DNA from: an uncultured Pirellula sp.
Lineage (GTDB): Bacteria > Planctomycetota > Planctomycetia > Pirellulales > Pirellulaceae
Reading direction: 5' to 3'
Assembly: GCA_903892355.1 (NCBI GenBank)
Contig: CAITIE010000084.1
Coordinates: 62,001 to 126,000, forward strand
Length of the DNA stretch: 64,000 bases
In this document: positions 400 through 44,979 of the stretch, piece after piece
How positions within the stretch are numbered: position 1 is the stretch's first letter
How the letters are laid out: the number at the start of each line of letters is the position of its first letter
Made by a program: the position numbers and the translations under genes
Notes under the pieces: generated by a model
Databases searched by the model: none
What the model saw: the letters and a program-made list of their open reading frames with translations, nothing else
Told to the model about the DNA's origin: nothing

Positions 400-464
400 C
401 CGGCTGTTTTTTGCGGTGGCACCGGCTGTTTTTGCGGTGGCACCGGCTGTTTTTTGCGGTAGCA
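400..464. repeat. Tandem repeat, about 22 bp x 3
   Basis: Three consecutive copies of a unit starting CCGGCTGTTTTTT and ending GCGGTGGCA (lengths 22, 21 and 22) lie directly behind the stop of the upstream gene. The copies differ by one T in the homopolymer and one G-to-A change. Confidence 0.95.
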
Positions 465-492
465 CCGATGCATGCCGCTTCCCAGCATGAAT

Positions 493-523
493 TACCTCGA
501 AGCTCCCCTCTCGCTTCGAGGTA
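493..523. other. Perfect inverted repeat, 11-bp stem, 9-nt loop
   Basis: TACCTCGAAGC at 493-503 pairs exactly with GCTTCGAGGTA at 513-523. No run of T follows on either strand, so it is not a classical intrinsic terminator, though it lies between two convergent genes where RNA 3' ends would be expected. Confidence 0.85.
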
Positions 524-553
524 CGCTTGGTGATGATTCGCTCCGCCGCGTAT

Positions 554-583
554 CGCGTTCGATTCATGGATGAATCGAACGCG
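554..583. other. Perfect inverted repeat, 14-bp arms, GG centre
   Basis: CGCGTTCGATTCAT at 554-567 is followed after two bases by its exact reverse complement at 570-583. With so short a centre it could be a cruciform or hairpin or a dyad-symmetric protein site. It sits in the convergent spacer between the amidotransferase and the sulfite reductase. Confidence 0.9.
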
Positions 584-720
584 GTCCTGTAGCACGAACG
601 GAAAGTACCCCAAGGATTCGGGGTCGATAGCGCATTGCGATGTCGTCTATCGTTGGCACGGAGGCCACTTTTCGTCTTGCTGCGAAGCGAAATCTCGAAA
701 GAGAAGTTCGGTTCCTCCCG

Positions 721-762
721 GTATCGCCTGCAGAGTATCGCCTGAGGAGTATCGACTTAAGA
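721..762. repeat. Tandem repeat, 14 bp x 3
   Basis: Three adjacent units begin GTATCG (GTATCGCCTGCAGA, GTATCGCCTGAGGA, GTATCGACTTAAGA). The third copy is diverged. It is non-coding as far as can be seen. Confidence 0.85.
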
Positions 763-798
763 GCGTTCGACAAGAATGGTGTTTCTGTCGCCGCTGGA

Positions 799-860
799 GC
801 GGTTGGTACGTGACGCACCAACCGCACTCTTGAGCGAAGCAGTCATGAGCGAAGCAAATA
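799..860. other. Hairpin plus 15-bp duplication before the sulfite reductase stop
   Basis: GCGGTTGGT at 799-807 pairs with ACCAACCGC at 817-825 (9-bp stem, 9-nt loop). Directly after it, TGAGCGAAGC occurs twice at a 15-bp period (831-845 and 846-860). The block lies just downstream of the minus-strand sulfite reductase and may form its RNA 3' end, but no T tract is present. Confidence 0.75.
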
Positions 861-864
861 GTCG

Positions 865-2589
865 CTAGATTGCTTGGACCGATTCCTGGCCGAGTCTTGC
901 GCAGAAATCACCGAACGACTCGGTGCCTTCGCGTTGCGATTTGAACGCCACGAATAGAGGCTTGAGGGTATCGGTGATGTTTTCGAGAGGGATTAGGTCC
1001 TTGTAGATGAATGCGAGGCGGGTTCCCAGCCGGGCACCACCGACGTAGACGGTGTATTTCCCTTTGGCTTTGCCCACCAGGCCGATATCGGCGTTGTAGG
1101 GGCGGGCGCATCCGTTCGGGCAGCCGGTCATTCGGACGGTGAAGAGTTCTTTATCGAGTTCGAGTTCTTCTAGGGTTTTCTCCATAACATCGAGGAGTCC
1201 TGGAAGGGCCCGTTCGCTTTCGGTGATCGCGAGGCCGCAGGTAGGTAGGGCCACGCAAGCGATCGACCAGCGGCGGACGTTGGATATCTCTTCGGTGAGC
1301 GGAAGGCCTCGTTTCTTGATAAGGCCTTCGAGTTTGCTCCGCTCGTTTTCTTGAAGGTTGCAAAAGAGGACGCTTTGATGAGCGGTCAGGCGGATCTCCG
1401 GGTTCAGTTCCGAACAGATATCTCGGAGGGCTGCTTTCCAGGCGCGGTTGTCATCATCGTATAGACGGCCGTTTTCGACATTGAATCCGTAGAACCAACG
1501 TCCGTCTCCTTGTTCGTCCCAACCCATGTGATCGCGGTGTTCGGTAACATCGTCGTGAGTGCAGTCGCTCAGTTTGGAGCCGTAGTACTCCTCTACTTTG
1601 CTGCGCATCCATTCGATGCCGCGATCATGGACCAAGTACTTCAGGCGGGCTCGCTTGCGGTCGTCGCGGTAGCCGAAATCACGTTGTACCTTGACGATCG
1701 CCTCTGCCACAGCGACGGCTTGTTCGGGGGTTACAAACGCCATACGCGTCGCAAGGCGAGGGAAGGTTTTCTTTGCGCTCGGCGTGATTCCCAGTCCGCC
1801 ACCGACAGTCACGTTGTAGCCGATGACTTCACCGTCGCGAACGACGGCGATGAATCCGAGGCAATTGGTGTAGACATCCGTGCAGTTGTCGTCGGAAATA
1901 GCGACTGCAGTTTTGAATTTACGAGGCAGGTAGGTTTTTCCATAGATCGGTTCAACGACCTCGTCGCTGCCACCTTGGAGTGTTTCGTCGCCGGAGTCCA
2001 AGTCCTTCAGCCAGAGTTCGTAGTAGGATTTGGTTCTGGGTTCGAGGTGGTAGCAAAGGTCGTAAGCTAGTTTTTGAACGGCGGGGCGAATGTTATCTCG
2101 GTAGGGTGCGGGGCATGCCATGACGTTTCGGTTCACATCCCCGCAAGCGGCGAGCGTTGAGAGGAGTGCATGATTGATCCTTTGCATGCATTCGCGCAGG
2201 TTGTCTTTCAAGATCCCGTGCAGCTGGAGGCCTTGGCGAGTGGTGATCTTCAGTGTTGAGTTGCCGATCGAATCGCAGATGTCCAAGTGGGTCAGGAGTT
2301 GCTCGGCGGTCAAGATGCCTGCGGGGATGCGGGAACGGACCATGAAGCTGTAGAGTTTTTCGCTTTTCCCCGACTCCGTGGATCCGCCGCGTTGTTCGCG
2401 GTCGTCTTGTTGGTAAGTACCGTGAAACTTGAGGAGTTGCAGATCGTCTTTTCCGAAATGCGTTGAATCGGAACAAAGTTCTTCCTTGATGGTGCCTCTC
2501 AAGTATCGGCTGGTATCCTTGATCAATTCAACAGCGCTGAGTTTTTCTGCTGAAGGCTTATCGACGGAGGATGTGGTCGGTTCTGACAT
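865..2589 (-). CDS. Ferredoxin-type sulfite (or nitrite) reductase, sirohaem/4Fe-4S protein
   Basis: The product of 574 residues reduces sulfite to sulfide (or nitrite to ammonia) with electrons from ferredoxin, in the cytoplasm, using sirohaem coupled to a 4Fe-4S cluster. The two cluster motifs are visible: CVALPTC (C-X5-C, about residue 445) and GCPNGC (C-X3-C, about residue 490), with the usual duplicated ferredoxin-like halves before them. I chose the ATG that reads MSEPTTSS. The frame stays open a further 108 codons upstream, but that stretch runs through 17-bp and 16-bp tandem repeats and has no family similarity, so it is very likely non-coding. The gene is divergent from folD. Sulfite reductase is preferred over nitrite reductase because no nitrate or nitrite genes are near, but this is not decided by the sequence. 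Confidence 0.88.
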   Translation of the reverse strand: MSEPTTSSVDKPSAEKLSAVELIKDTSRYLRGTIKEELCSDSTHFGKDDLQLLKFHGTYQQDDREQRGGSTESGKSEKLYSFMVRSRIPAGILTAEQLLTHLDICDSIGNSTLKITTRQGLQLHGILKDNLRECMQRINHALLSTLAACGDVNRNVMACPAPYRDNIRPAVQKLAYDLCYHLEPRTKSYYELWLKDLDSGDETLQGGSDEVVEPIYGKTYLPRKFKTAVAISDDNCTDVYTNCLGFIAVVRDGEVIGYNVTVGGGLGITPSAKKTFPRLATRMAFVTPEQAVAVAEAIVKVQRDFGYRDDRKRARLKYLVHDRGIEWMRSKVEEYYGSKLSDCTHDDVTEHRDHMGWDEQGDGRWFYGFNVENGRLYDDDNRAWKAALRDICSELNPEIRLTAHQSVLFCNLQENERSKLEGLIKKRGLPLTEEISNVRRWSIACVALPTCGLAITESERALPGLLDVMEKTLEELELDKELFTVRMTGCPNGCARPYNADIGLVGKAKGKYTVYVGGARLGTRLAFIYKDLIPLENITDTLKPLFVAFKSQREGTESFGDFCARLGQESVQAI

Positions 2590-2627
2590 TGGTTCTTGAT
2601 GCCCTATTGGCCGACGGGAGTGCCCCC

Positions 2628-2706
2628 GGTTCGGCGTGGAGTTTGGTTCGGCTTGGAGTTTGGTTCGGTGTAGAGTTTGGTTCGGTGTAGAGTTTGGTTC
2701 GGTGTG
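2628..2706. repeat. Tandem repeat, 17 bp x 4 plus a partial copy
   Basis: The unit GGTTCGGTGTAGAGTTT occurs at 2628, 2645, 2662 and 2679, with a partial fifth copy from 2696. Copies 3 and 4 are identical, copies 1 and 2 differ at two or three bases. It lies 39 bp upstream of the chosen sulfite reductase start. Confidence 0.97.
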
Positions 2707-2850
2707 GCTGGCAGGATCGCGTAGCTCTTGGTTGAGGAGCGTCTGTCCGAGTCGAGATGCGCATAAATCAATGCGCACAGGGTGGACGACACTACGCTTC
2801 CTGTGCCGCACATTATATAACAAGAGTTCTTGGGAGGGATACGTCAGTCG

Positions 2851-2898
2851 AACTCTGGGCTGTGCGAACTCTGGGGTGTGCGAACTCTGGGCTGAGCG
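2851..2898. repeat. Tandem repeat, 16 bp x 3
   Basis: AACTCTGGGCTGTGCG and two near-identical copies follow each other directly, in the spacer between the divergent sulfite reductase and folD. Confidence 0.95.
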
Positions 2899-2957
2899 AA
2901 ATCCTAGCGAAGGCATGATGAAGGTGTCGCGATCGTTTCGCTGACGGCGGCTTAGTA

Positions 2958-3008
2958 TAGGATCGGCTAATGCGTAGGATCGGCTAATGTATCTGATTGG
3001 CTAATATT
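2958..3008. repeat. Tandem repeat, 17 bp x 3
   Basis: TAGGATCGGCTAATGCG, TAGGATCGGCTAATGTA and a diverged third copy with GATTGGCTAATATT lie 45 bp upstream of folD. The unit is unrelated to the neighbouring repeats at 2628 and 2851. Confidence 0.92.
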
Positions 3009-3052
3009 GCGTGCAGTTGTGATTGGCGAGTGGTTTCAGGATTGGGGAAACG

Positions 3053-3934
3053 ATGGCAGCAACAATTTTGGATGGTAAGTCGATAGCGATGCAGATTCGG
3101 ATGGAGGTTGCGGAGGGTGTTTTGCGGCTCCGCGAAACGACCGGCGTGGTGGCTTGTTTGGCTGCTGTTCTCGTCGGGGAGGATCCTGCGAGTCAGGTCT
3201 ATGTTCGGAACAAGGAGATCGCGTGTCATAAAGCGGGAATCGAGAGTCGTATGTTTCGGTTGCCTGCGTCGACGACGATGGAGGAGTTGTTGGGGTTATT
3301 GGATCGATTGAATCAGGATGATGCCATCCATGGGATTTTGGTCCAGTTGCCATTGCCCCGGCATTTGGAGGAGCGCCGCGTGCTGGACCGTGTGGATTCG
3401 GCCAAGGATGTCGATGCGTTCTCCCCTGAGAATGTTGGCTTGATATCCCAAGGAAGGCCCCGATTTTTGCCTTGCACGCCTCATGGCGTGATGCAGTTAC
3501 TGCATCGGTGTGGGATCGATGTTGCGGGCAAGGAAGTGGTGGTTGTGGGGCGGAGTGATATCGTCGGCAAGCCTTTGGTCTCAATGTGTTTGCAGAAGAG
3601 TGGGCCGTGGGGAGACTCGAATGCGAATGCAACCGTGACGTGTGCTCACAGCAGGACGGTAGATTTGGCGAGTGTCACGCGGCGAGCAGAGATATTGATG
3701 GTCGCGATTGGCAAGGCGCGAGCGATTACGGCAGAGATGGTTCGACCTGGGGCTGTGGTGATCGATATCGGGATCAATCGCGAAGGGGACGGAATTTGCG
3801 GCGATGTCGATTTTGATTCGGTGAAGGAGATCGCGAGCGCGATCACACCGGTTCCTGGAGGCATCGGGCCGTTGACGATCGCGATGCTATTGCAAAATAC
3901 ACTTGCTGCAGCAGAGTTCGCCGCGTCCGCTTGA
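3053..3934 (+). CDS. folD: Bifunctional methylenetetrahydrofolate dehydrogenase/cyclohydrolase
   Basis: FolD interconverts 5,10-methylene-, 5,10-methenyl- and 10-formyl-tetrahydrofolate in the cytoplasm, using NADP, and feeds purine synthesis and formyl-methionine. The 293-residue product has normal family length and the expected blocks: YVRNKEIA with the catalytic Lys, HGILVQLPLP, the CTPHG loop, the nucleotide-binding VVVVGRSDIVGKP, and PVPGGIGPLT near the C-terminus. The start MAATILDGK is chosen because it matches where FolD proteins begin and has GGGG six bases upstream; an in-frame start 30 bp earlier is possible. The gene stands alone, divergent from the sulfite reductase. Confidence 0.95.
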   Translation: MAATILDGKSIAMQIRMEVAEGVLRLRETTGVVACLAAVLVGEDPASQVYVRNKEIACHKAGIESRMFRLPASTTMEELLGLLDRLNQDDAIHGILVQLPLPRHLEERRVLDRVDSAKDVDAFSPENVGLISQGRPRFLPCTPHGVMQLLHRCGIDVAGKEVVVVGRSDIVGKPLVSMCLQKSGPWGDSNANATVTCAHSRTVDLASVTRRAEILMVAIGKARAITAEMVRPGAVVIDIGINREGDGICGDVDFDSVKEIASAITPVPGGIGPLTIAMLLQNTLAAAEFAASA

Positions 3935-3986
3935 GATCGTGGCGTTCATGTGCTAACGCGACGAAGTTCATGCTTTCACAAGGCAG

Positions 3987-4472
3987 CTAGCAGGCTTTGA
4001 TTTGTTCGATGATGATCAGCAAGTGCTTGGCTCTCATGATCGATCCTGCAGCTTTCACGAATGCGACACCTGCCTCGAGTTCGGGTAGGGTGATGCTGGC
4101 CCCTGGGGAGCTGATAGCCGTGGAATCCACGCGTTCGCTTCGAGTTCGCGTCGATTCGCGGGGCGCGGGGGCGTTGCCCGATGCTCGCTTGGAGATACTC
4201 TTGACGTTGGCAACATCCGCAGCCGTTACCTTGTACTGCTTCAAGGCCTCGACGACATCCTTGTTTCTCGCTTGTGGGTTCGCCTCCATAAATGCTCGGA
4301 TGCGTTGTGCTTTGCTGAGATCTTTTGACATGTTCTTTTCCTTTGCGATGTGAGCGGCTTCGGTGGTGGATTCGTCGGCAATGCTTTTCCTCGATTCGGC
4401 TTGACGGATCAAGTTTTCGGGAACGCTTTCTACTAATTCATCGAGTGTTATCACTCGTTCAATATCTACCAT
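3987..4472 (-). CDS. Small conserved planctomycete protein with a helical DNA-binding-like segment
   Basis: I do not recognise a named family. The 161-residue product has a helix-rich segment AQRIRAFMEANPQARNKDVV followed by ALKQYKVTAADVANVKS, the kind of short winged-helix-like unit seen in many small planctomycete proteins, then a Ser/Arg-rich linker and a C-terminal amphipathic helix (ELEAGVAFVKAAGS). Two starts are plausible. The long form (4472) has AGGAG about 11 bases upstream. An internal ATG at 4331 (MSKDLSKAQR) has AAAGGA at good spacing and gives 114 residues beginning exactly at the conserved unit. A role in DNA binding is inference. Confidence 0.7.
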   Translation of the reverse strand: MVDIERVITLDELVESVPENLIRQAESRKSIADESTTEAAHIAKEKNMSKDLSKAQRIRAFMEANPQARNKDVVEALKQYKVTAADVANVKSISKRASGNAPAPRESTRTRSERVDSTAISSPGASITLPELEAGVAFVKAAGSIMRAKHLLIIIEQIKAC

Positions 4473-4679
4473 AGGTGCAATTACTCCTGATTAGGACTCA
4501 ACAGGTTGGAGGAACTCTGGTGGCTTCATTTGTGTTTTATTCTAAGACCCGACGTCCGCGGCTTTATGATTTCTAATACTGGGGCGTTGATGTTTTCTCG
4601 AAGTTTGCAACAGCGAAACGAAGGCTGAGGTCGATTTGCGTGCATGATTCGTCGGCTAGATTTTGACTGGACTTTCCAG

Positions 4680-4731
4680 GCTGTTGGCGATTGAAGCTGT
4701 CGGCGATTGAATGAAGCTGTCGGCGGTTGAA
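4680..4731. repeat. Tandem repeat, 16 bp x 3 with a 4-bp insertion
   Basis: GCTGTTGGCGATTGAA, GCTGTCGGCGATTGAATGAA and GCTGTCGGCGGTTGAA follow each other. The middle copy carries an extra TGAA. Confidence 0.9.
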
Positions 4732-5163
4732 ATCGTCAAAGCGATGCAGCGCAATCCATAGCAACCCAATCCGAACTCTGCAGCGGCAAATCCCCAGTGA
4801 TTACGAGGCGTAACCTCTTTCGTCCTACCAATCCTCGCATCGGTTCCAATTTCGTCGCCAACACCTTTGCATCTCTCAAGGAAACTCTCATAGAGGTCTG
4901 AGAATCGGGAGCGAGGTGAGTGAGCAAGGGCGGATGGATCGTTGCTGTCTCCAAACCCATGATATTCCTTTCAGCAAATGCGTCAATCGATAAAAAAAGG
5001 TATCGAAACAGCTATATAGAGACCATTGGAACGCTATCGGGAAAAATCGGTACAAGCAAGCGGCGATGGTCATCGGTGACGTACGAGGAGGCTTCGGCTG
5101 GTGGGTGAGCGGCGGATGAGAGGCCAATTCGACCGGATAGCCCGGTCACAAAGTCGGGGAATT

Positions 5164-5172
5164 TGGTATAGT
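5164..5172 (+). promoter_or_regulatory. Candidate extended -10 promoter element for gyrB
   Basis: TGGTATAGT contains a near-consensus TATAGT hexamer preceded by TG at the extended -10 position, 111 bp upstream of the gyrB start. No good -35 hexamer is visible at 16-18 bp. The assignment rests on sequence resemblance only. Confidence 0.4.
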
Positions 5173-5174
5173 GA

Positions 5175-7849
<2,675 letters not shown>

Positions 7850-7870
7850 ACGGCCGTGCAAGATAGACGT

Positions 7871-9334
7871 TTAAGCAAGGCACTCCCGCACCACAGTTCC
7901 ATGGACATCGGTCAATCGAAAGTCTCTTCCTCCCCATCGGAAGGTGAGTCGTTCGTGGTCGATGCCCAGCAGGTGAAGGATCGTCGCGTGCAAGTCATGC
8001 ATGGTGACGACATTCTCTACCGCCCGATAACCAAATTCATCGGTTGCTCCATGGCAGTACCCCCCCTTTATCCCTCCTCCAGCCAACCAAATCGAGAATC
8101 CTTGAGGGTTGTGGTCGCGGCCTTTGCCACCTTGAGCAAACGGCGTCCGCCCAAACTCGCCCGCGAACACCAACAAGGTCGAGTCAAGCAATCCTCGAGC
8201 CTTGAGATCCGCGATCAAGGCTGCGATTGGCTGATCGACCACCTTGGCATTTCTCCGATGTCCCGCTTCGATATTTTCGTGGTCGTCCCACGGGGCGATG
8301 AAGCGAATCCCTTTGACACAAGTGATCTCCACAAAACGTACCCCGCGTTCCACTAGTCTTCGGGCGAGCATGCATTGTCGGGCGTACTGAGCGAGTAGCG
8401 GATCGGCGGAGTCGGTCCCGTAAAGCGAATGGGTTTCGTGTGTTTCGTTTTTGAAATCGACCAAGTCCGGAACTGCTAACTGCATGGCGCTCGCGGTTTC
8501 ATAGTTCTGAATCGCCGACTCGATCCACTGTTCTTCGGTGGATAGTCCTGCTGGATTCCTCAAGAAGCGATGATCTTGTTGGCGAACAAAATCCAACATG
8601 GCACGCTGCACTGACAACGGCTCTGCTGGCGAGATGTTGCTGACCGTTTCCCCCCCGCTAAACGCATCAAAAATCGTCGCTTGATGGATGGCAGGCAAGA
8701 ACGCATTGGAGAAGTTTTCTGGGCCGCCGATGGGAAGCAGTCCCCCGTTGACCACCACGTACTCAGGTAAGTTCTTGTTCTCGGTACCAAGACCATAACC
8801 GACCCAGGCACCGAGCGATGGTCGGCCTTGGATCGGGTTCCCGCTATGCAGGAACATGCACGCTTGGGAGTGTTCTGAGAACTCGCTCTTCATCGAGCGG
8901 ATGACGCATAAATCGTCTGCGAGTTTCGAGAGGTGAGGGAACAGTTCGCTCATCACCAAGCCCGATTTTCCATACGGAGCGAATTGGAACGGACTGCCGA
9001 ACGAGGTTCCGTTCTGATCGAACTGCGTCGCATCGATCGAGGCCGGGAATGGCTTGCCGTGCTCTTTGAGCAAGAGTGGTTTCGGGTCGAATGTGTCGAC
9101 TTGCGAAGGCCCACCGTCCATGAACAGGAAGATTACATTTTTGATTTTTGCAGGATGATGCAGACCGGTGGAGGTTGGATCGCCAAGCTGGTCGTATGCT
9201 GCAGCCAATGCTCCGTTCCTTCCCACGCCGGAGCGCAGGCCAACGTGTTCGGCGAGAATCGAGGATAGGGCCAGCAAACCGAAACCGTTCGCGGAGTGTT
9301 GGAGTATCTTTCGCCGAGTAGGAAATTTTTTCAT
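7871..9334 (-). CDS. DUF1501 (sulfatase-like fold) secreted protein
   Basis: The 487-residue product belongs to the DUF1501 family, abundant in planctomycetes and structurally related to alkaline phosphatase/sulfatase proteins. It begins with a twin-arginine-type leader (TRRKILQ followed by a hydrophobic GLLALSSIL), so export by Tat is likely. The conserved FLFMDGGPSQVDTFD, GEFGRTP and DHN blocks are visible. The gene starts four bases after the stop of the upstream PSCyt1/DUF1553 gene, an arrangement seen again and again in planctomycete genomes, so both are almost certainly made from one transcript. A role in breakdown of sulfated or complex carbon is often suggested but unproven. It converges on gyrB with only 47 bp between them. 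Confidence 0.9.
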   Translation of the reverse strand: MKKFPTRRKILQHSANGFGLLALSSILAEHVGLRSGVGRNGALAAAYDQLGDPTSTGLHHPAKIKNVIFLFMDGGPSQVDTFDPKPLLLKEHGKPFPASIDATQFDQNGTSFGSPFQFAPYGKSGLVMSELFPHLSKLADDLCVIRSMKSEFSEHSQACMFLHSGNPIQGRPSLGAWVGYGLGTENKNLPEYVVVNGGLLPIGGPENFSNAFLPAIHQATIFDAFSGGETVSNISPAEPLSVQRAMLDFVRQQDHRFLRNPAGLSTEEQWIESAIQNYETASAMQLAVPDLVDFKNETHETHSLYGTDSADPLLAQYARQCMLARRLVERGVRFVEITCVKGIRFIAPWDDHENIEAGHRRNAKVVDQPIAALIADLKARGLLDSTLLVFAGEFGRTPFAQGGKGRDHNPQGFSIWLAGGGIKGGYCHGATDEFGYRAVENVVTMHDLHATILHLLGIDHERLTFRWGGRDFRLTDVHGTVVRECLA

Positions 9335-9338
9335 AGGG

Positions 9339-12300
9339 TTACCTGACGAAGATCGTTTCCTTCAAATTGAACATGGCGTGGGCCAGCGTCGACCATGCGA
9401 GTTCCGGAGCATTTGTTTCGGTAAGTTGCTTGATCAATTGTTCCGCCGATTCCATCTCCTCGCTGGATGGGAGACGATTAAGGAGGGCTTGGTACATGGC
9501 GTTGATCCTGGCTGTTTCGGATGCGTTCTCGCGAACGACTCGATCTGCCCACATTTTGGATTGATGGATCACAAAGGGATCGTTCATCAAGGCCAAGCTT
9601 TGGGTTGGGACGATGGTAGAACTTCGTTTTCCGACCGGGGCCGCGGGTCGTGGGAAGTCAAATGTCAGGAGGAATTCGTTAGGGAAATTGCGTCGAACCT
9701 CCAGATACAACGAACGCCGTCCGTTGCCATCGATCGGTCCGGGCGGAGACTGCTTGTTCGGCTCTAGTACTTGGCGGTAGTAATTGGCGGTACCGAGACC
9801 GCCATCGGGTCGTTTCATAGACCCCGCGACGTAGAGCATGGAGTCTCGGATCGCTTCGGCATCGAGTCGGCGTACCGACGCGTGGGACCAAAGCCGATTG
9901 CCGGGATCTTTGTCGCGAGCGACGGGTGATTCCACCGAGGAGCGCTGCCATGTTTCGGAGGTCAGGATGGCTCGCAATAACTGTTTGTTCGACCAGCCGT
10001 TTTCCATGAACTCGATGGCGAGTTGATCGAGCAATTCAGGATGGCTGGGCGGCTCACCCATGCGACCGAAATTGTCAACGGTTCGCACGAGGCCCTCGCC
10101 GAAGAGCCAATTCCAGACGCGATTGACATAGACTCTCGCTGTGAGTGGATTCGTGGGAGAGACAATTTCATTGGCTAACATGAGCCTGCCGCTTTGCGAG
10201 GATTGGTACTCGGAGTCGGAGGAGCCCAGGACTTTCAGGTAGCGACGCGCGACGGTGCCGCGCGGTTGCTTGTGGTCTCCGCGCGAAAGCCATTCCTGAT
10301 CCAGTGCGAGGTTGTCTTCAAAGACGCCAGGTGTTCGTTTGGGAACTGGGATTTGGCTTTCGATGGTGCGGTACTCGTCAACGAGTTGTTTTCGTTCCGG
10401 GGACGAGTCGATGTTGCTTCGCAAAAGCCCGTTGCTGATGAGGGTATTTAGCCAAGCGGCATCGGTTGGAAGTGGTTCGTCCCTTTCCATCCGATCGATG
10501 GCGGCTGTGGTAAAAGTGAGGAGTGCCTCGATCCATGCACTTGTGGAACGCGGATGGGATTCCACCAGTTCTAGAGGGATTGCATGAGGTGGTTGCATTC
10601 GGAGTCCGCGGGAATGCATGATTGCTTTCGCCACACCGAAACTGGAACGACCGTCGGACGCGTTGATCGCCTTGGGATCCTTGACGATGCCAATATAGGG
10701 TTTCGCATCGCGTGTCAGAAATTCGAGATGAGCGCGCAGTCCTCGCCACTGGGGCCGAATGGTCATGGTGACCCATTGGTATGAATTGGAGTTCAAACTC
10801 GGGTTGACCGTATCAAACAGAAGCGAGTCCCCTTGGAAGTTCTCCATCACGAGTCGGACTCGGGCGTTTGCTGTTCCTCGGCAAAGGATCGAGATCGCCT
10901 CGCCATCGACGGTGAAGTCGGGAGATCGCAGACTGCCAGTGGCCCGATCGGAGTAGAGATTCGAGTGATAGCCTGGTTCCACGAGGATCGAAAATGGGTC
11001 TTCTGCGGAGCCGAGGATCGACCAGTGCGTTTTCGCACCGATCAATGACGTCGGCATTCCGGATCCTTGAATGCGCCAATTCTCCAGCAGTTGCGTTTTT
11101 GAAGCTTTGGTCAGTGAGTTTGTGGACGTTAAATCAAAGAGCAGCGTCATTGAGTCGGGGGTGATGTCGCGGGGGGCCAATTCGTTGCGGATCGATTGCT
11201 CCCATGCGATCGATTGCTGTTCGACATCGCTGGAATCGTTTGCAATCAGCAGTGGGCCTAGCGGAGCGAGCTTGGATTCAGAGAGTCTTGATTCCTTGGG
11301 CTTGCAAACCCATTTGCCGATGGCTTTCGTCCATCGGTCGTTAGGGATTGTTTTCTCAAGTTCCTCCCATTTGGTTTCCGGGGTCCAGTGGGTTTGGATC
11401 TCGTGGATAGCTCGTTCGATTTCCGAAGGCCACGACGCTACATCGCGGTCCCAATCGGAAGCGGCGAGGGAGCGAGCGCGTTGTTGCAGTTTGGATAGCT
11501 CGTCGACGGTTTGCGCGAATGCGAATGGTCGATCGATGATGGGTAACCCGGCACGAGTGCTCCGAAGAATCCCGTAGATCGCGTAATAATCCTCGTCGGA
11601 GATCGGGTCAAATTTATGATCGTGGCAGCGGGCGCACGATAGCGTGATGCCTTGAAAGGCTTTGCCAATCGCCTCGATTTGGCTATCGATAACGACGATC
11701 TCCTCGCGCTTGACATCGACTGGCGTTTGATTGAACTCAACGAAACGGTAAAACCCTAGGCCGATCAGAGATTCATTGATTCCTTCAAGTTCATTCCATC
11801 GCGGCTCGACCAGATCCCCAGCGAGGTTTTCCAGGATAAGGCGATGAATTGGGACATCGTCGTGGAAGGCACGAACGATGTAGTCACGGTAGCGGTGCGC
11901 GAAAGGTAAGTACGCATCATCCTCGGATCCGTGGGTTTCTGCATAGCGAACGGTATCGAGCCAATGTCGTGCCCAGTGCTCGGCAAATTCGTCGGTGGAG
12001 AGCATGGTGTCGACGATTTTTATCCATGCATCGTCTACGGGATCATTGAGGAACGCGTCGACCTCGGTTTGCGACGGTGGGATACCACGGAGTTGAAAGC
12101 TGAGGCGTCGAATGAGAGTGCGACGGTCTGCTTTTGGGGAGTGGGGTACACTCCGTTTGGAAAGTTCGCGTCCGATCCAAGCATCGATGGCTTGGCTGCC
12201 GCGGACGTTGATTTCTGGGGTAATGGGCAAGGAAGGGAGCGGTTGCCAGCACCACCATTTGGCACGCTGTGCGGCGATCGATTCCCATTGAGCATCCGTG

Positions 12301-12800
12301 GTTGATTGATCTCCGAAGGAGGTAATGGGTTCTGGGGATTCGCGCGGGTCGATTGCACCTTGCTCGATCCATCGGCTAAATTTCGCGATGTCCGTTTCGT
12401 CGAGTTTGGGGGCTTTGGCAGGCATCTCCAGCCCTGGTTCCCCATGGCGGATCGTGCGGATCAAAAGGCTTTCATCCGGTTTCCCGGGAACGATCGCAGG
12501 GCCAGAATCACCTCCTTTCATCCAGCCTTCTCGGCTATCGAGAGCCAAGCCGCCGTTTGTTTTTTTCTCGTTGTGGCAGGCCAAGCAATGTTGATGCAGG
12601 GCGGGTCGGATATGGGATTCAAAGTACTCGTACTGCGGAGTCTTTGCTGGCGAGTTCAAGGTGTCTGGTGGTGGAGTGCTCTCGCCAGGAGATTGACTGC
12701 GGAGTCCGCCGGATGTTGAGGCAACTAGCCAGAGTACAAGCAACGAGATTTGGATGCCTTTATCAACGAAGCGAGCATCCCGATTATGCCGAGCATCCAT
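9339..12800 (-). CDS. PSCyt1/DUF1549/DUF1553 planctomycete cytochrome-domain protein
   Basis: This 1153-residue protein has the domain order typical of the group: an N-terminal signal segment (ISLLVLWLVASTSG), a PSCyt1 haem c motif (CLACH, about residue 75), the DUF1549 region with LIRRLSFQLRGIPP and a second CXXCH (CARCHDHKFDP), a middle domain resembling a carbohydrate-binding module, and DUF1553 with RVYVNRVWNWLFGEGLV. It is probably periplasmic and covalently binds haem c. The first gene of a two-gene unit, it sits directly upstream of the DUF1501 gene. Function is not established for the family; partnership with DUF1501 is inferred from constant linkage. Confidence 0.92.
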   Translation of the reverse strand: MDARHNRDARFVDKGIQISLLVLWLVASTSGGLRSQSPGESTPPPDTLNSPAKTPQYEYFESHIRPALHQHCLACHNEKKTNGGLALDSREGWMKGGDSGPAIVPGKPDESLLIRTIRHGEPGLEMPAKAPKLDETDIAKFSRWIEQGAIDPRESPEPITSFGDQSTTDAQWESIAAQRAKWWCWQPLPSLPITPEINVRGSQAIDAWIGRELSKRSVPHSPKADRRTLIRRLSFQLRGIPPSQTEVDAFLNDPVDDAWIKIVDTMLSTDEFAEHWARHWLDTVRYAETHGSEDDAYLPFAHRYRDYIVRAFHDDVPIHRLILENLAGDLVEPRWNELEGINESLIGLGFYRFVEFNQTPVDVKREEIVVIDSQIEAIGKAFQGITLSCARCHDHKFDPISDEDYYAIYGILRSTRAGLPIIDRPFAFAQTVDELSKLQQRARSLAASDWDRDVASWPSEIERAIHEIQTHWTPETKWEELEKTIPNDRWTKAIGKWVCKPKESRLSESKLAPLGPLLIANDSSDVEQQSIAWEQSIRNELAPRDITPDSMTLLFDLTSTNSLTKASKTQLLENWRIQGSGMPTSLIGAKTHWSILGSAEDPFSILVEPGYHSNLYSDRATGSLRSPDFTVDGEAISILCRGTANARVRLVMENFQGDSLLFDTVNPSLNSNSYQWVTMTIRPQWRGLRAHLEFLTRDAKPYIGIVKDPKAINASDGRSSFGVAKAIMHSRGLRMQPPHAIPLELVESHPRSTSAWIEALLTFTTAAIDRMERDEPLPTDAAWLNTLISNGLLRSNIDSSPERKQLVDEYRTIESQIPVPKRTPGVFEDNLALDQEWLSRGDHKQPRGTVARRYLKVLGSSDSEYQSSQSGRLMLANEIVSPTNPLTARVYVNRVWNWLFGEGLVRTVDNFGRMGEPPSHPELLDQLAIEFMENGWSNKQLLRAILTSETWQRSSVESPVARDKDPGNRLWSHASVRRLDAEAIRDSMLYVAGSMKRPDGGLGTANYYRQVLEPNKQSPPGPIDGNGRRSLYLEVRRNFPNEFLLTFDFPRPAAPVGKRSSTIVPTQSLALMNDPFVIHQSKMWADRVVRENASETARINAMYQALLNRLPSSEEMESAEQLIKQLTETNAPELAWSTLAHAMFNLKETIFVR

Positions 12801-34140: not shown

Positions 34141-34254
34141 GTCATCCCCTGCAGATCCAACGGCAACCATCACCGAATAGCCGCCAGAGAAGTTTCTAAA
34201 ATTGAGCGCAGCCAACCGGCAACTTAGGTTCATTGCTTTGTTCCAGCTGTTTTC

Positions 34255-34344
<90 letters not shown>

Positions 34345-35082
34345 TCAGTGAAGCGGCGCTCGTGCTCGATCGACGTAGCGATTGTATCACTCCGTTATGG
34401 TCGATGCGCTGGTCGGATTGGAAGTTGCGACCGGGTAGGCGAATGGAAATAAGAAGGACAGCCTACGAGATCAGGAAATGCAGTCTGCCAGCCGTACCGG
34501 ACATCGCAATGCTGCCATGCGAGCGAGCCAATCGATTACGATTACGATTACGATTACGATTACGATTACGATTACGATTACGAGCAGGAGCAGGAGCAGG
34601 AGCACGAGCACGATTACGATTACGATTACGATTACGAGCACGGTAGGATCCCGTAGTCGCGCAGGCTGGAGCTGGGATTTGTGTCGTTAATAGTTCCGTC
34701 CAGTCTCCGTCGTTGTTGCCTCTAGAATCGCAATGAGCATGCACATCGCGGCTAATTCAGCGATTGGATCCAGGCCATCCGCTACCCTCGCTGAACGTTT
34801 TTTCATCAGGTCGAATTGGTGGGGCGAATTGGTTTTCAGAACCGAACAAGAAAACCTTCGAAAATTTCTAAAAAAGAAGTTGGCTGCTGTGTCAAAGCAC
34901 CGATGGATGGGGTACATTTACGTCACAGTGGGGGGTGCAGGCAGGCTGCTGTGCTGATCCATGAGATGAATCAATCAAAAAGAACTTGCCTCACCTGGCT
35001 TTGGTTGGATTTCGGGCGTGACCAACCGCTGTCGGGTGAGGCTTTTCTATTTCTGCGGAGCGACTTTTGAGTTTCTCTCCGA
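34345..35082. other. Spacer downstream of serS without a convincing gene
   Basis: Apart from the hexamer array at 34533-34640 I see nothing that looks like a gene. Short frames here encode RSRS- or TITI-type low-complexity peptides that simply follow the repeats. Confidence 0.65.
34533..34640. repeat. Mosaic hexamer array 2, 18 units of [C/G]GA[TT/GC]A
   Basis: Eight CGATTA, then CGAGCA, three GGAGCA, CGAGCA, four CGATTA and a last CGAGCA, all in one phase without interruption. The array is inverted relative to array 1, 188 bp away. Confidence 0.97.
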
Positions 35083-35751
35083 TCAACCGTCGTCGCCGAC
35101 GTCTTCATTGTCGCTTATCTCGCCATGAGTACCGAATTGGCTGAGGTCGATCGCGAACGGGTTTAAATCCTGCTCACTCGGGTCCGAGGTAGATTCAGCA
35201 ACGGTTCCCTCCGGAGAAGCTTGCAAGGACTGGATCATGGTGATCAGCATGGCTTGAAAGACCCGTTCCATGGAGGTGAAATCGCGGTCCTCGGCTTGGA
35301 ATTGCACAAGGAACGTATGCTGAGCGAATTGGAAGGAAATCAATCGGACCGTGATGAGGAGGTCGAGGTAGTAGAAGTTTAAGTCGGTACCTCGACTGGC
35401 GTTTGGGACGTTGCTTTTCGGTTGCGATGGGGCGCTTTTCGGTTGCGATGGGGCGCTTTTCGGTTGCGATGGGGCAAGGTCGACGTGGAGGAGTTCGCGT
35501 TCTGGTGCGAACGATGATAGCTCGATACCTTCGTAATCGGCTGCGATGGCTTTGGTGGCTTCCTCGATCGCTTCGTCCGGAGATACGCTTCGAGGGTAGC
35601 GGTAGACCGACATGAACGCGCTGGTAGGACTTTGCAGATTAAAACCTACGACCGTTGATTGGTCCGCGTGTTCCGCGACGGTTTCTTCCGAGAGTTGCCA
35701 GTTTTCGGGGTAGGTGCAAGCGAGACCGAGGCCTCGATAAACTTTGGTCAA
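35083..35751 (-). CDS. Conserved hypothetical protein, TTG start
   Basis: I do not recognise a family. The 222-residue product begins YRGLGLACTYPENWQLSEET, which resembles the start of DcrB/PsbP-like beta-sheet domains (a short strand followed by YPxxW), has no signal peptide, and ends in an acidic tail (about 50 residues rich in Asp/Glu/Ser). Between them lies a 21-bp x 3 in-frame repeat (SQPKSAP). The first possible start is TTG with GAAGGA about ten bases upstream; a later ATG (MSVYRYPRS) would remove the conserved-looking beginning. It lies 111 bp downstream of the acyltransferase gene on the same strand. Confidence 0.68.
   Translation of the reverse strand: MTKVYRGLGLACTYPENWQLSEETVAEHADQSTVVGFNLQSPTSAFMSVYRYPRSVSPDEAIEEATKAIAADYEGIELSSFAPERELLHVDLAPSQPKSAPSQPKSAPSQPKSNVPNASRGTDLNFYYLDLLITVRLISFQFAQHTFLVQFQAEDRDFTSMERVFQAMLITMIQSLQASPEGTVAESTSDPSEQDLNPFAIDLSQFGTHGEISDNEDVGDDG
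35414..35476. repeat. In-frame 21-bp x 3 repeat inside the hypothetical gene
   Basis: CTTTTCGGTTGCGATGGGGCG occurs twice exactly and a third time with one change at the end, encoding three SQPKSAP units on the minus strand. Confidence 0.97.
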
Positions 35752-36914: not shown

Positions 36915-36968
36915 GAAGACAGAGCAGTGTTCGAAGGCAGAGCAGTATTCGAAGACAGAGCAGTGTTC
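36915..36968. repeat. Tandem repeat, 18 bp x 3
   Basis: GAAGACAGAGCAGTGTTC occurs at 36915 and 36951 exactly, with a two-base variant between. It lies upstream of the acyltransferase start in the spacer behind the DinB-like gene. Confidence 0.95.
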
Positions 36969-40160: not shown

Positions 40161-40228
40161 ATGACAGCCAGCAGGTAATGACAGCCAGCAGGTAATGACA
40201 GCCAGTAGGGAATGACAGCCAGTAGGGA
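40161..40228. repeat. Tandem repeat, 17 bp x 4
   Basis: ATGACAGCCAGCAGGTA occurs twice, followed by two copies of ATGACAGCCAGTAGGGA. The copies form two identical pairs, so the array probably grew by doubling of a two-unit block or by two separate duplications. Confidence 0.97.
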
Positions 40229-40486
40229 ATTACCAATCGCGAGTATCCACGATGGGGATGGGGAATCCAAGGCCCAGAGGCGTAGATCGAGGCTCTCGAT
40301 CCTTTCGTTTTCTTAAGGGTTACGCGTTGTTCATGTGGGAGGCTTGGGAGGAAAAAACGGCTTGGAAACGAAACTCTCGATCTAGAGTAGTGTTTGAATC
40401 AATGTCTCGAGGCGATGCTTTTCGGGAAGTGTTGCATCGGTGACAGGTTGTTGTTCTTGCTTTCATCGAATACTGCTAGCAAAAAC

Positions 40487-41642: not shown

Positions 41643-41697
41643 TTGCCTGAGTGTAGAATTGCCTGAGTATGGCATTCGCGGAGTATGGCATTGGCGG
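41643..41697. repeat. Tandem repeat, 16 bp x 3 plus a partial copy
   Basis: TTGCCTGAGTGTAGAA, TTGCCTGAGTATGGCA and TTCGCGGAGTATGGCA are followed by a short partial copy. It ends 61 bp upstream of the M13 peptidase start. Confidence 0.9.
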
Positions 41698-41757
41698 GGT
41701 ACCGTGCAAGCCAACGCGTGGTTTCTTGGATTCCGCAGAAAATGAGCGAGAGGTCTT

Positions 41758-43836
41758 ATGTCAATTCGATTCGGTGCGTGGTTGGATAGACGAACGGCAT
41801 GGGTTTCCCAAAGTGCTTTGATGGCAGGGTTGGGCGTCGGTTTGTTGGTTGCCAGCCATGCCATTGGGCAAGAGCGGGGAACTGCGAAGGGCGTCTCGGG
41901 AGTCGAAAAGGCAAACTTCAGCAAGACGATCAAGGCTGACGAGGACTTCTTTCGGTTCGTGAATGACACGTGGCTCGAAACCACGGAGATTCCAGCCGAT
42001 CAATCCAACTATGGGTCGTTTACGGTTTTGGATATTGAGACGAAGGCGGCCATCCGCGAGATCATCGAAAAGGCAGGGCAATCGGAGTCGCCATCGCCAA
42101 TCGCCAAGCAAGTCGGTGATTTTTATCGTTCCTACACCGATTTAGAAGCCCGCAATGCGGCGGGAATAACCCCGGTTGTCCCCGCCATTCAAGAGATCCG
42201 TGCGATCTTGAACAAGCCGATGTTGTTGGCATACGCCGGTCAGTTATCTCGACGCGGTGTCGCAAGTTTCTTCGGTGTTGGTATCGAACCCGACGCCCGA
42301 CGTTCGGATCAGTATGCGGTGTATGTCGGTCAGGACGGCACATCGCTGCCGGATCGCGATTACTACCTTTTGGACGAACCGCAGTACGTGGAGATTCGCA
42401 AGGCGTATGTCGCTTTCGTTGCGGAGATGCTCGCCAAGATCGGTTGGGAAAACTCCGAAAAAGCGGCCCAGGATATCTTGGCGTTGGAGACAAAATTCGC
42501 GGATTGCCAATGGGATAAGGTTGCTCTTCGGGATCCGGTGAAGGCCTATAACAAGCTCGAGGCGGCCAATTTTGCTGCCAACCACCCTGGACTCCATTGG
42601 AATGCCTATGCGGAGTTTGTCGGCATCCCCGAAGTGAAGGAACTCATCGTCGGGCAGCCGAGTTTCTTCGAAGGATCGCAAAAGATTCTCGAAGAAACTC
42701 CAATCGATACATTGAAGGCCTATTTGGCGTTTCAAGTCATCGATACCTATGCGCCGGTTTTGTCGGAAGAAATCGAGAAGATCCATTTCAACTTTCACGA
42801 AACCACCCTCAGCGGAGTTGCGGAACAAGAGCCCTTGTGGCGGCGCGGGGTCGACGCGTGCAATGCGATGCTCGGAATGCCGGTTGGGCAGCTGTACGTT
42901 GAGAAGCATTTCAGTCCCAAGGCCAAAGAGCGCATGAACGAGTTGGTGGGTAACCTGCTCAAAGCTTTCTCAGAACGCATCGATCAATTGCCATGGATGG
43001 GGAATGGAACCAAGGCACAGGCGCGTGAGAAATTGTCCAAGTTTACGCCGAAGATCGGGTATCCAGACAAATGGAAGGACTACTCCTCGGTGAAGATTGA
43101 CGGCAAGGACGTGGTTGGCAATTTGACTCGAATCGCCGAGTTCGAGCATACGTACGCGATCGGGAAATTGGGCAAGCCCATCGATCGGACGGAGTGGTAC
43201 ATGCCACCGCAAACCGTCAACGCGTACTACAACCCGTTGATGAACGAGATCGTATTCCCCGCCGCGATTCTCCAACCCCCCTTCTTCAATCTAGAGGCCG
43301 ATGATGCGATCAACTACGGCGGCATCGGAGCGGTGATCGGGCATGAAATTAGCCATGGGTTCGACGACTCTGGAAGCAAGTTCGATGGGCAGGGGAACCT
43401 GAGGAATTGGTGGACGGCCAATGATGAAAGCGAGTTTGAAAAACGATCGCAGCAATTGGTTTCTCAGTACGATGCTTACCAACCGATCCCGGGGATGAAT
43501 CTCAGCGGTAAATTCACGTTGGGAGAAAACATCGGGGATCTCGGCGGATTGAGCGTCGCCTACACCGCGTACAAGCTGTCGCTCGATGGCAAGCCTTCGC
43601 CAGTTATTGACGATTATACGGGGGAGCAACGCTTCTTCATTGGTTGGGCTCAGGTGTGGCGTCGCAAGTACCGCGAAGCGGAAATGCGAAAGAGGATCAA
43701 AACCGATCCGCACTCGCCAAGCCAATATCGATGCAATGGGATCGTATCCAACCTCGATGGATTTTACGATGCCTTCGAGGTTAAGCCTGGCTCGGCAATG
43801 TTTATTGCTCCTGAAAAGAGAGTTCGGATCTGGTAG
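41758..43836 (+). CDS. M13-family zinc metallopeptidase (neprilysin/PepO type)
   Basis: The 692-residue product belongs to peptidase family M13, which cleaves short peptides. It has the zinc motif GHEISHGFDD (HEXXH, about residue 528), the downstream GENIGDLGG with the third ligand (about residue 590), the substrate-binding VNAYYNPLMNEIVFPAA, and a normal C-terminal domain ending in IW, typical for the family. The N-terminus has a hydrophobic segment (LMAGLGVGLLVASHAIG), so it is exported. GAGAGG lies before the ATG. It stands alone. Confidence 0.93.
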   Translation: MSIRFGAWLDRRTAWVSQSALMAGLGVGLLVASHAIGQERGTAKGVSGVEKANFSKTIKADEDFFRFVNDTWLETTEIPADQSNYGSFTVLDIETKAAIREIIEKAGQSESPSPIAKQVGDFYRSYTDLEARNAAGITPVVPAIQEIRAILNKPMLLAYAGQLSRRGVASFFGVGIEPDARRSDQYAVYVGQDGTSLPDRDYYLLDEPQYVEIRKAYVAFVAEMLAKIGWENSEKAAQDILALETKFADCQWDKVALRDPVKAYNKLEAANFAANHPGLHWNAYAEFVGIPEVKELIVGQPSFFEGSQKILEETPIDTLKAYLAFQVIDTYAPVLSEEIEKIHFNFHETTLSGVAEQEPLWRRGVDACNAMLGMPVGQLYVEKHFSPKAKERMNELVGNLLKAFSERIDQLPWMGNGTKAQAREKLSKFTPKIGYPDKWKDYSSVKIDGKDVVGNLTRIAEFEHTYAIGKLGKPIDRTEWYMPPQTVNAYYNPLMNEIVFPAAILQPPFFNLEADDAINYGGIGAVIGHEISHGFDDSGSKFDGQGNLRNWWTANDESEFEKRSQQLVSQYDAYQPIPGMNLSGKFTLGENIGDLGGLSVAYTAYKLSLDGKPSPVIDDYTGEQRFFIGWAQVWRRKYREAEMRKRIKTDPHSPSQYRCNGIVSNLDGFYDAFEVKPGSAMFIAPEKRVRIW

Positions 43837-44161
43837 TTGCTCCCAATCGATACTATCGGTTTTGTTAGGTTATGTTGCCGCTCGGAACTTTCTGATTGGA
43901 GCGGCAGCACCGGTTGGAATGGACGTGCGCCTAAAAGATTTTCTCCCGAGGGTTGCCTGTCGGATCGGTTGGAGCACGCCTTGCAGGATTTTCTAAAGGG
44001 ATTTTCTGCCGAGATTTGACATGAATGGGGGGCGACCTAGGTTTCGATGAGAGACTTCCTTGTTTTCGCCTTAACATTGTGGACAGACCGCTTCGATTTC
44101 GTGCGGTTGGTTGAGGGGCATCGAAAGTCCAAAGCATACACGTCCCGAATGCGAATGGCCC

Positions 44162-44926
44162 ATGTTTGTCGTATGCCGAGACGAGAGTTTTCAAAGCAGG
44201 TTTGCCTTTCTAGGCTTAGTGGCGTGGGTAAGCGCGTGCTTGTTCATCGCCGGATTTTTTCCGATCGATTCAAATTGGTCTCGTCCCGTCTCGCTCGCGG
44301 GATTGATCGGATTGGTGTCAGCTGTTGGACTGAATGAATCGCACCGCTCGAGGACCAACGCAAGGCTTGCGAGGCTCAAAGAAACTGCGACCACAGACTC
44401 GTTGACAGGGGTTGGGAATCGCCGGTTGCTCGATCTGGAAATTGACCGTCGCATAGCGCAGCTTCGTCGTCAGGGAACCACGGTTTCCGTCTTGATGATC
44501 GATGTGGATCATTTTAAAGGGTTCAATGATACGTATGGGCATCAGGCCGGCGACCTGGTGTTGGAAGTTTTGGCAAAGCAAATTGCACGAACCCTTCGCG
44601 ATATGGATTTACTGACGCGTTACGGTGGCGAAGAGTTCGCCGCTGTATTGCCGGGGACTGACTTGGAACATGCTCGCTTAGCTGCGGAACGGATACGTAC
44701 CGCAGTCGAGTCGACGGAGATTCCTTGGGAGGATCGCAAGCTATCGGCCACCGTGAGCGTGGGTGTTTCCGAGGCGAGTAACTTCGATACCCCGGAATCG
44801 GTTCTAAAGCGGGCCGACTCAGCTTTGTATGACGCCAAGCGAGCTGGAAGGAACTGTTGTTTTTTTCGAGAGTGTGGAAAAGAGGGTTCCTCTCAGATTC
44901 TCAGTGCGAGCGTCTCAGCCACTTGA
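44162..44926 (+). CDS. Membrane diguanylate cyclase
   Basis: The product of about 254 residues makes cyclic di-GMP. Two hydrophobic segments (residues about 10-55) precede a full GGDEF domain: DSLTGVGNRR, IDVDHFKGFNDTYGH, and the active-site RYGGEEF (about residue 155). RDMD five residues before GGEEF is an intact RxxD inhibitory site, so product inhibition is likely. No sensor domain is seen besides the membrane part. The ATG reading MFVVCRDES is chosen; an earlier in-frame start (44111) is possible. It stands alone between the M13 peptidase and the DUF6655 gene. Confidence 0.88.
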   Translation: MFVVCRDESFQSRFAFLGLVAWVSACLFIAGFFPIDSNWSRPVSLAGLIGLVSAVGLNESHRSRTNARLARLKETATTDSLTGVGNRRLLDLEIDRRIAQLRRQGTTVSVLMIDVDHFKGFNDTYGHQAGDLVLEVLAKQIARTLRDMDLLTRYGGEEFAAVLPGTDLEHARLAAERIRTAVESTEIPWEDRKLSATVSVGVSEASNFDTPESVLKRADSALYDAKRAGRNCCFFRECGKEGSSQILSASVSAT

Positions 44927-44951
44927 AGATGGCCTTCGTAAGTCCATTGAA

Positions 44952-44979
44952 CACGGCGAACTAAGCACGGCGAACTAAG
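44952..44979. repeat. 14-bp x 2 repeat behind the cyclase gene
   Basis: CACGGCGAACTAAG occurs twice in direct succession, 25 bp after the cyclase stop. Confidence 0.9.

Follow-up and report, generated by a model that had tools for sequence, protein, structure and literature searches.

The short tandem arrays of this Pirellula genome probably arise by frequent local tandem duplication through template misalignment, followed by turnover of copy number and, in genes, by selection; we put the probability of this reading at about 0.7. Units private to their arrays, array lengths that differ from the sister species in both directions, a density independent of promoters, a frame filter in genes and a band of unit sizes are all directly observed. 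The window is the whole stretch of 64,000 nucleotides that was analysed. Its source genome (G000) is a draft in 158 contigs. It was compared with a sister species (G022), with another Pirellula genome held in a single contig (G001) and with a further comparison genome (G003), the between-species set containing one genome per species.

Arrays in the window

Using TRF with a period of 8–40 and a score of at least 50, 26 arrays were called in the window, counting those in genes as well as those in spacers. Shuffling the window 100 times gave a mean of 0.28 arrays and a maximum of 2, which excludes a chance origin. In each array the copies are contiguous, head-to-tail and of one unit.

The original prediction listed 18 intergenic arrays in the first 45 kb. 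All 18 places are self-similar at a lag of 12–22 bp, and 15 of them were recovered by TRF at a score of at least 30. The three outside the TRF calls are 831–860, a weak two-copy repeat (12/15 matches at lag 15) whose length is identical in G022; 2958–3008, three decayed copies of a 17-bp unit (27/34, lag 17) with four copies in G022; and 15391–15430, two copies of a 20-bp unit (16/20, lag 20) with three in G022 and, by eye, an unrelated 17-bp repeat in G003. The label "intergenic" does not hold throughout, as 7816–7849, 15391–15430 and 16171–16200 overlap the edge of a predicted gene, the first of them spanning the gyrB stop. Nor do the arrays occupy almost every spacer, as had been proposed: in the first 45 kb an array scoring at least 50 was present in 16 of the 27 spacers of at least 40 bp, and in the sampled genome in 84 of 387, about one fifth. 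Genes were called with a home-made codon-pair predictor rather than a standard gene finder. Arrays lying in frame within genes, and two long hexamer arrays at 34254–34346 and 34533–34637, are missing from the original list.

Unit sequence, density and placement

The sample of G000 comprised 0.55–0.88 Mb out of 6.18 Mb, drawn from large contigs and from guessed contig numbers. Three of its pieces (L139, L184 and L186) have a G+C content of 0.00, as N-filled sequence would give. They were kept in the lag spectrum and in the genome-by-genome densities, and L139 also in the 545-kb shuffle comparison; they were excluded from the length, frame and birth counts and from the counts based on 387 spacers and 105 units. 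TRF cut-offs vary by count: a score of at least 50 with a period of 8–40 or 8–60 was used for spacer classes and densities, and a score of at least 40 for lengths and frames.

In 545 kb, 80 spacer arrays were found against 0.2 in shuffled sequence, so base composition is rejected as their cause. The units are unrelated, as predicted: of 105 spacer units sampled, 3 turn up again in a different array when up to two mismatches are allowed, compared with 1 of 105 shuffled units. A mobile or shared repeat family of the REP or MITE type is rejected on this privacy, and the proposal that each place has duplicated a stretch of itself is borne out by the private units together with the sister-species comparison. 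A CRISPR array is likewise rejected, since the copies are adjacent, with no unique spacers between them.

Density hardly depends on the orientation of the flanking genes, with 0.74 arrays per kb in convergent, 0.76 in divergent and 0.87 in codirectional spacers. Promoter, regulatory or iteron arrays were rejected because convergent and divergent densities are about equal and there is no conserved unit. Hairpin-driven duplication or a palindromic unit was also considered. The folding energy of single units, calculated with RNA parameters (n = 108), averaged −0.53 versus −0.36 in random spacer pieces, and 19% folded below −1 in both, which is no clear difference. The richest of 43 sampled bins covers window positions 1–18000, with 11 arrays over its 4.5 kb of spacer. 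Although this bin over the first part of the window is the richest, counts over the bins are near Poisson (p = 0.065) and a window-specific hot spot was mostly rejected. The process acts across the genome, and the window is a region rich in its products.

Comparison with the sister species

G000 and G022 were aligned over 163 kb, with a divergence of 8.4% in spacers and 6.3% in genes. In 61 of the 84 indels of at least 8 bp the longer allele is tandem; some of the remaining 23 also appear tandem on inspection. By inspection, copy number at the 18 listed places equals that of G022 in four, while 14 differ in number, unit or presence. The change in copy number is seen between species only, and array length differs in both directions.

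Copies are more numerous in the window at 395–467 (unit of 21–22 bp, 3.4 copies against 2) and 2628–2707 (17 bp, 4.7 against 2.7). G022 holds one copy at 7814–7852 (17 bp, 2.3 copies that span the gyrB stop codon, with an end homology of 5 bp), 26070–26095 (13 bp, two exact copies, end homology absent), 32783–32820 (13 bp, 2.9 copies), 40161–40230 (17 bp, 4.1 copies) and, in a spacer further on, 55314–55360 (24 bp, two copies). The opposite direction is seen at 721–763 (14 bp, 3.1 copies against 5 in G022) and 16171–16200 (15 bp, two copies), where the G022 version is longer and rearranged. G022 is shorter at 36915–36968 (18 bp, three copies), with a poorly aligned right flank, and at 41643–41701 (16 bp, 2–3 copies). 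The arrays at 2849–2900 (16 bp, 3.2 copies against 3), 12864–12924 (13 bp, 4.8 decayed copies, a similar array in G022) and 24848–24880 (12 bp, 2.8 copies against three) differ little. At 4680–4731 units of 16 and 20 bp stand where G022 has a different repeat of about 14 bp. For 44952–44980 (14 bp, two exact copies) no copy was recovered between the flanks in G022, where the flanks are partly unaligned, or in G003.

For candidate births the reference was a sister species with about 8% divergence in spacers; the available outgroups are too distant to separate gain from loss. Among the 29 candidates, 10 have an end homology of at least 3 bp, about 4% being expected by chance, and 19 have at most 1 bp. 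In 10 of these 19 the copies have diverged, and homology may be undercounted there for that reason. Perfect two-copy arrays in G000 spacers gave a mean end homology of 5.3, compared with an expected 0.6; the candidate births are preferred because the perfect two-copy set includes arrays with a third, decayed copy.

Size band and frame filter

Unit length is constrained, to a wider band than the 16–18 bp originally preferred. Of 135 spacer arrays, 108 have units of 12–18 bp, 7 of 8–11 bp and 17 of 19–25 bp. Within the band the distribution is flat (15, 20, 15, 19, 15, 9 and 15 arrays from 12 to 18 bp; p = 0.56), and the narrower preference was not upheld. The 12–18 bp band also appears in the exact-match lag spectrum of G000 and G022, and it is absent from shuffled sequence and from the sampled part of G001. 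Arrays in the 545-kb sample hold 1.9–6.5 copies.

Genes are affected as well as spacers, contrary to what had been supposed: they carry units of equal length in multiples of three. Within 12–18 bp, genes have 83 units that are multiples of three and 11 that are not, versus 49 and 59 in spacers. The corresponding densities are 0.116 per kb in frame and 0.015 per kb for other lengths in genes, and 0.356 and 0.429 per kb in spacers. Selection of frame-breaking duplications out of genes would leave this pattern, with mainly multiples of three in genes and all lengths in spacers. Examples are 35413–35475, three copies of a 21-bp unit in the predicted gene 35083–35751 (two copies in G022), and 21500–21589, with units of 15 and 30 bp in the predicted gene 21183–24821, where the G022 region is 27 bp longer.

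Relatives and outside controls

The controls from outside the Planctomycetes were few: the E. coli chromosome and two megaplasmids, 200 kb in total. They gave 3 arrays in 40 kb of spacer compared with 106 in 138 kb here (p = 7e-9). Equal richness was thus found neither in shuffles, which held almost no arrays, nor in these 200 kb, which were poorer; this partial comparison leaves the original prediction standing.

G001 has 24 arrays in 61 kb of spacer. The density in G003 was 0.75 per kb on 44 kb and then 0.48 per kb on 98 kb. A five-fold deficit in the clade at 90% gyrB identity (0.14 per kb, 2 arrays in 20-kb gyrB neighbourhoods) failed with more sequence, the larger sample giving 0.57 per kb and 23 arrays, six of them with a period of 8. 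Within the genus, the excess over the nearest clade was not significant (p = 0.21). Elsewhere in the order, G030 has 2 spacer arrays in 8.4 kb and G031 none in 12.9 kb of spacer.

A single GyrA-type subunit was found in 10 of 10 genomes searched of the array-rich clade, and two in 6 of 6 others of the genus. Within the genus, topoisomerase IV thus seems to have been lost from the array-rich clade, a change that might alter the resolution of stalled or tangled forks. Nevertheless, G031 also has one GyrA-type subunit yet no arrays, and the clade represents one event.

Origin of the arrays

On the preferred reading, a genome-wide mutational process would copy short unique stretches in place, usually 12–18 bp long; it would differ by degrees across the order and reach a high level in the source lineage. 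We infer that in the first step a displaced strand misaligns on its template while DNA is replicated or a gap is filled, and that the step of 12–18 nt reflects how long this strand is. From two copies on, the number may drift through slippage or unequal exchange while point mutation decays the copies, and selection would purge frame-breaking duplications from genes. Evidence against this comes from the 19 of 29 candidate births whose ends have at most 1 bp of homology: both slippage and the yeast rad27 signature are attributed to direct repeats in the part of PMC5677150 available. A mutator through loss of MutS, MutL or RecJ was rejected: MutS_I, MutL_C and RecJ_OB domains are all present in 13 of 13 genomes. 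MutS_V was found in 9 of 9 named planctomycete genomes.

Uncut 5′ flaps of about 12–18 nt, retained by a deficient FEN1- or PolA-like activity and ligated, as proposed for yeast rad27, are a possible but less likely source. The flap length would supply the step size, the 10 candidate births with at least 3 bp of homology fit, and the product resembles rad27 insertions, which in the available part of PMC5677150 repeat neighbouring sequence and outnumber deletions. However, those insertions span a wider range there (unique part 1–91 bp, repeat 1–21 bp). Moreover, a PolA 5′–3′ exonuclease domain, of putative activity, is present in 12 of 12 genomes searched, and loss of this domain was rejected. 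A mechanism particular to the clade, with a built-in measure of 12–18 nt and no need of end homology, is a doubtful proposition; it would keep and ligate a displaced strand, or a repair patch, of fixed length, and the chromosome would steadily gain short copies in place.

Fill-in end joining, in which staggered breaks are filled in and joined so that the overhang is duplicated, is a model from plants. It would account for the 19 births with little homology, and an overhang of limited length would likewise limit the length of the unit. It is improbable here, as Ku was found in 0 of 13 same-genus genomes searched, a set that contains some incomplete genomes but also G000 and G001, the latter in a single contig, and the one Ku-bearing genome of that search, G030, has the two arrays given above.

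Regulatory repeats, that is, binding sites or phase-variable promoter spacers under selection, are very improbable. Control of transcription by such repeats is noted, citing a review, in the part of PMC9426551 available, but the near-equal convergent and divergent densities, the lack of a common unit sequence, the arrays in genes and the 14 of 18 listed places that differ in G022 by inspection argue against them. Misassembly of repeats from short reads, conceivable in a draft of 158 contigs, can practically be set aside, since G022, a separate record, has related units at matching places, gene arrays keep the frame and the single-contig G001 also bears arrays.

If template misalignment is the true source, in-place tandem gain and loss make up most of the longer indels of the lineage (the 61 of 84 above), and the lineage would be a natural system for studying the onset of short tandem duplication, which is difficult to catch in other systems. 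Sister species offer single- and multi-copy versions of one place, the frame filter measures selection, and the size band is a number that any mechanism must meet. A further use of the arrays could be as markers of strains in lakes.

Comparison with known systems

The only direct precedent recognised in a literature search is PMC9426551 (2022), the available part of which links intergenic tandem repeats to noncoding deletions in lake Planctomycetota. Both studies concern lake Planctomycetota; ours compares species and used no reads. The unit-length band, frame filter, unit privacy and clade comparison do not occur in that account as far as it was available; of these, the band, the filter and the comparison of clades add to the published record. 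In the part of PMC6749651 available, Rhodopirellula baltica is among the bacteria listed as having satellites of four or more repeats. The likeness to the yeast rad27 signature (PMC5677150, part available) lies in insertions that repeat neighbouring sequence; unlike that signature, which is direct-repeat mediated and wide in size, most candidate births here (19/29) have at most 1 bp of homology and the flap-nuclease domain is present.

REP/BIME, MITE and cyanobacterial STRR repeats are abundant in spacers and have a sequence common to their sites. The arrays described here are alike in spacer abundance and have no sequence common to sites. VNTRs, or bacterial minisatellites, consist of head-to-tail copies whose number varies between related genomes. 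The present arrays likewise have head-to-tail copies of a single unit that differ in number between related genomes, here between species. Unlike VNTRs as a class, they are many and private, have few copies (1.9–6.5) and keep to a narrow range of unit length.

Tandem arrays in the window and in the genome

The original prediction listed 18 intergenic tandem arrays in the first 45 kb of the window. Every place proved to be a genuine self-similar stretch, and a tandem-repeat finder (TRF) detects 15 of the 18. At period 8–40 and score ≥50, TRF finds 26 arrays in the window, genes and spacers together, whereas 100 dinucleotide-preserving shuffles, made separately within each block of predicted gene or spacer, average 0.28 and never exceed 2. 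The window is C84:62001-126000 of the source genome, G000 (a 6.18 Mb draft in 158 contigs). In 545 kb of G000, 80 arrays were found in spacers and 54 in genes, compared with 0.2 and 1.2 in five shuffles. Because shuffles yield almost no arrays at either scale, chance is not their source. The description of arrays in almost every spacer holds loosely in the first 45 kb (16 of 27 spacers of at least 40 bp) but fits the genome sample poorly (84/387). The units are indeed private and form no repeat family, with recurrence in just 3 of 105. Single units did not fold clearly more strongly than random spacer pieces (mean −0.53 versus −0.36), and 19% of each fell below −1.

In contrast to the 12–18 bp arrays, hexamer arrays at 34254–34346, 34533–34637 and 24884–24910 have a common unit, TGCTCG/CGAGCA by eye; the first two are mutually inverted. 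In the sister species, G022, there are about 20 copies at the first place and nearly none at the second. Of 13 genomes searched, 7 contain the three-copy TGCTCG pattern; overlapping matches to it number 125 in G014 and 35 in G000. The backwards hexamer is invalid as a control, being a rotation of TGCTCG.

A band of unit lengths

The predicted preference for 16–18 bp is absent. Spacer arrays with units of 12 to 18 bp number 15, 20, 15, 19, 15, 9 and 15, a flat distribution (p = 0.56), and the band they form has marked edges: 108 arrays at 12–18 bp versus 7 at 8–11 bp and 17 at 19–25 bp. The surplus of exact 9-base matches per lag relative to shuffles, a measure independent of TRF, climbs in G000 between lags 11 and 12 (−1 to 25) and drops between lags 18 and 19 (31 to 4); the corresponding steps in G022 are 3 to 15 and 20 to 2. 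Shorter, 7-base matches soften the lower edge (lag 11 gives 9 and lag 12 gives 36), so detection accounts for part of the fall below 12 bp.

The same-genus genome G001 (single contig, 400 kb sampled) showed no such band, with 10 of 24 arrays at 12–18 bp versus 86 of 106 in G000 (p = 0.0002). Rhodopirellula genomes favor 16 bp (6/10 spacer arrays), and a preferred unit length may therefore be a wider trait whose value varies.

Genes and spacers

The process is not restricted to intergenic space; genes hold the same unit lengths, filtered by frame. Among arrays of 12–18 bp, 83 fully coding ones have units of 12, 15 or 18 bp and 11 have the other four lengths, compared with 49 and 59 in spacers. 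Per kb, genes carry about one third of the spacer density of in-frame arrays and about one twenty-eighth of that of other lengths. Such a pattern is predicted by genome-wide mutational input followed by selection. Some of the 11 out-of-frame coding arrays may be gene-prediction errors.

The most frequent period in genes is 15 bp (42 of 115 fully coding arrays; period 8–40, TRF ≥40); G000 spacers, unlike genes, have no peak there. Predicted spacer makes up just ~0.1 kb of G000:C153:1-20000, which suggests a single very long gene or a small number of them.

Comparison with the sister species

Matches to the window's gyrB came from same-genus genomes and from lake metagenome entries carrying the label Pirellula sp. 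or Planctomycetota. The nearest relative seen was G022 (98% gyrB protein identity; about 87–96% DNA identity over long matches), followed by G003 (about 77–88% over longer matches). The G000–G022 alignment covered 163 kb, 135 kb of it coding and 27.5 kb spacer. Single-base events were the largest class of spacer indels (55/132), and 31 of the 132 were of 9–18 bp; in genes the commonest length was 15 bp (9/38). The longer allele had tandem structure in 61 of 84 indels of at least 8 bp. Several of the remaining 23 looked tandem on inspection, and others were clearly non-tandem.

One species has one copy and the other two at, for example, 7814 (a 17-bp unit spanning the gyrB stop codon), 26070 (13 bp) and 55314 (24 bp). 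Such candidate births range from 9 to 24 bp, so the band edges are not absolute; G003 has diverged too far in its spacers to act as an outgroup, and the births hence carry no direction of gain or loss. By eye, G022 has a different repeat at 4680–4731 and G003 at 15391–15430, as expected if spacers are struck repeatedly.

End homology was ≤1 bp in 19 of 29 candidate births and ≥3 bp in 10, for which about 4% is expected by chance (geometric). Homology thus helps duplication, seemingly without being required. It is possibly undercounted, since the copies have diverged in 10 of the 19 low-homology births, and the 10 long-homology births may include older arrays.

Distribution among genomes

Spacer-array density (TRF ≥50, period 8–60; samples of 40–860 kb) is graded within Pirellulales and highest in this lineage. 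Arrays per kb of spacer numbered 1.25 in G022, 0.77 in G000, 0.57 in the 90%-gyrB clade of the genus (13/23 at 12–18 bp), 0.48 in G003, 0.39 in G001 and 0.28 in G015, G016 and G026 pooled. Values elsewhere were 0.68 in Botrimarina (6 arrays), 0.41 in Rhodopirellula G037/G038, 0.32 in TBK1r, 0.24 in G030 of the same order (2 arrays), 0.16 in G032, 0.12 in Lacipirellula and 0.07 in SP176; the samples of G031 (same order) and SZAS-6 held no spacer arrays. The G000 excess was significant against G001 (p = 0.002) and not against the 90%-gyrB clade (p = 0.21). Outside planctomycetes, E. coli, pSymA and pHG1 gave 0.08, 0.06 and 0.09, pooled as 3 arrays in 40 kb of spacer, well below G000 (p = 7e-9).

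Proposed mechanism

The arrays would arise by frequent local tandem duplication through template misalignment, in replication or gap filling; copy number would then drift, and selection would act on arrays in genes. We give this process as a whole a probability of roughly 70%, and the misalignment step less. The 12–18 bp band would be accounted for if the length of a flap or patch fixed the step.

A correlate is the apparent loss of topoisomerase IV from the array-rich clade, judged from gene content. One GyrA-type subunit was found in each of ten genomes (G000, G022, G003, G006, G005, G007, G002, G017, G014 and G008), with no second near-full-length GyrB-type match in these ten; all six other same-genus genomes searched have two GyrA-type subunits, and a second GyrB-type match, whole or in large part, was found in 13 other genomes of the genus. 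Some of the ten are just 80–89% complete, and the ten together make chance loss from assemblies unlikely. The loss is at most one event on the tree, and G031 has one GyrA-type subunit and no arrays, while G039 has two and no arrays; we give it no causal weight. End joining is unlikely, since Ku was not found in any of 13 same-genus genomes. The enzyme losses that were checked do not account for the arrays: MutS, MutL and RecJ domains were found in 13 of 13 genomes and the PolA flap domain in 12 of 12. A regulatory role is very unlikely, given similar densities in convergent, divergent and codirectional spacers (0.74, 0.76 and 0.87 per kb).

Relation to known systems

Searches of an open-licence library turned up no printed account of either the band of unit lengths or the frame filter. 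Multiples of three are, in the available part of one source, a general sign of repeats within genes (PMC6749651). Judged against the available part of the account of repeat-linked noncoding deletions in lake Planctomycetota (PMC9426551), the present arrays are an instance of that phenomenon, to which their anatomy is added here.
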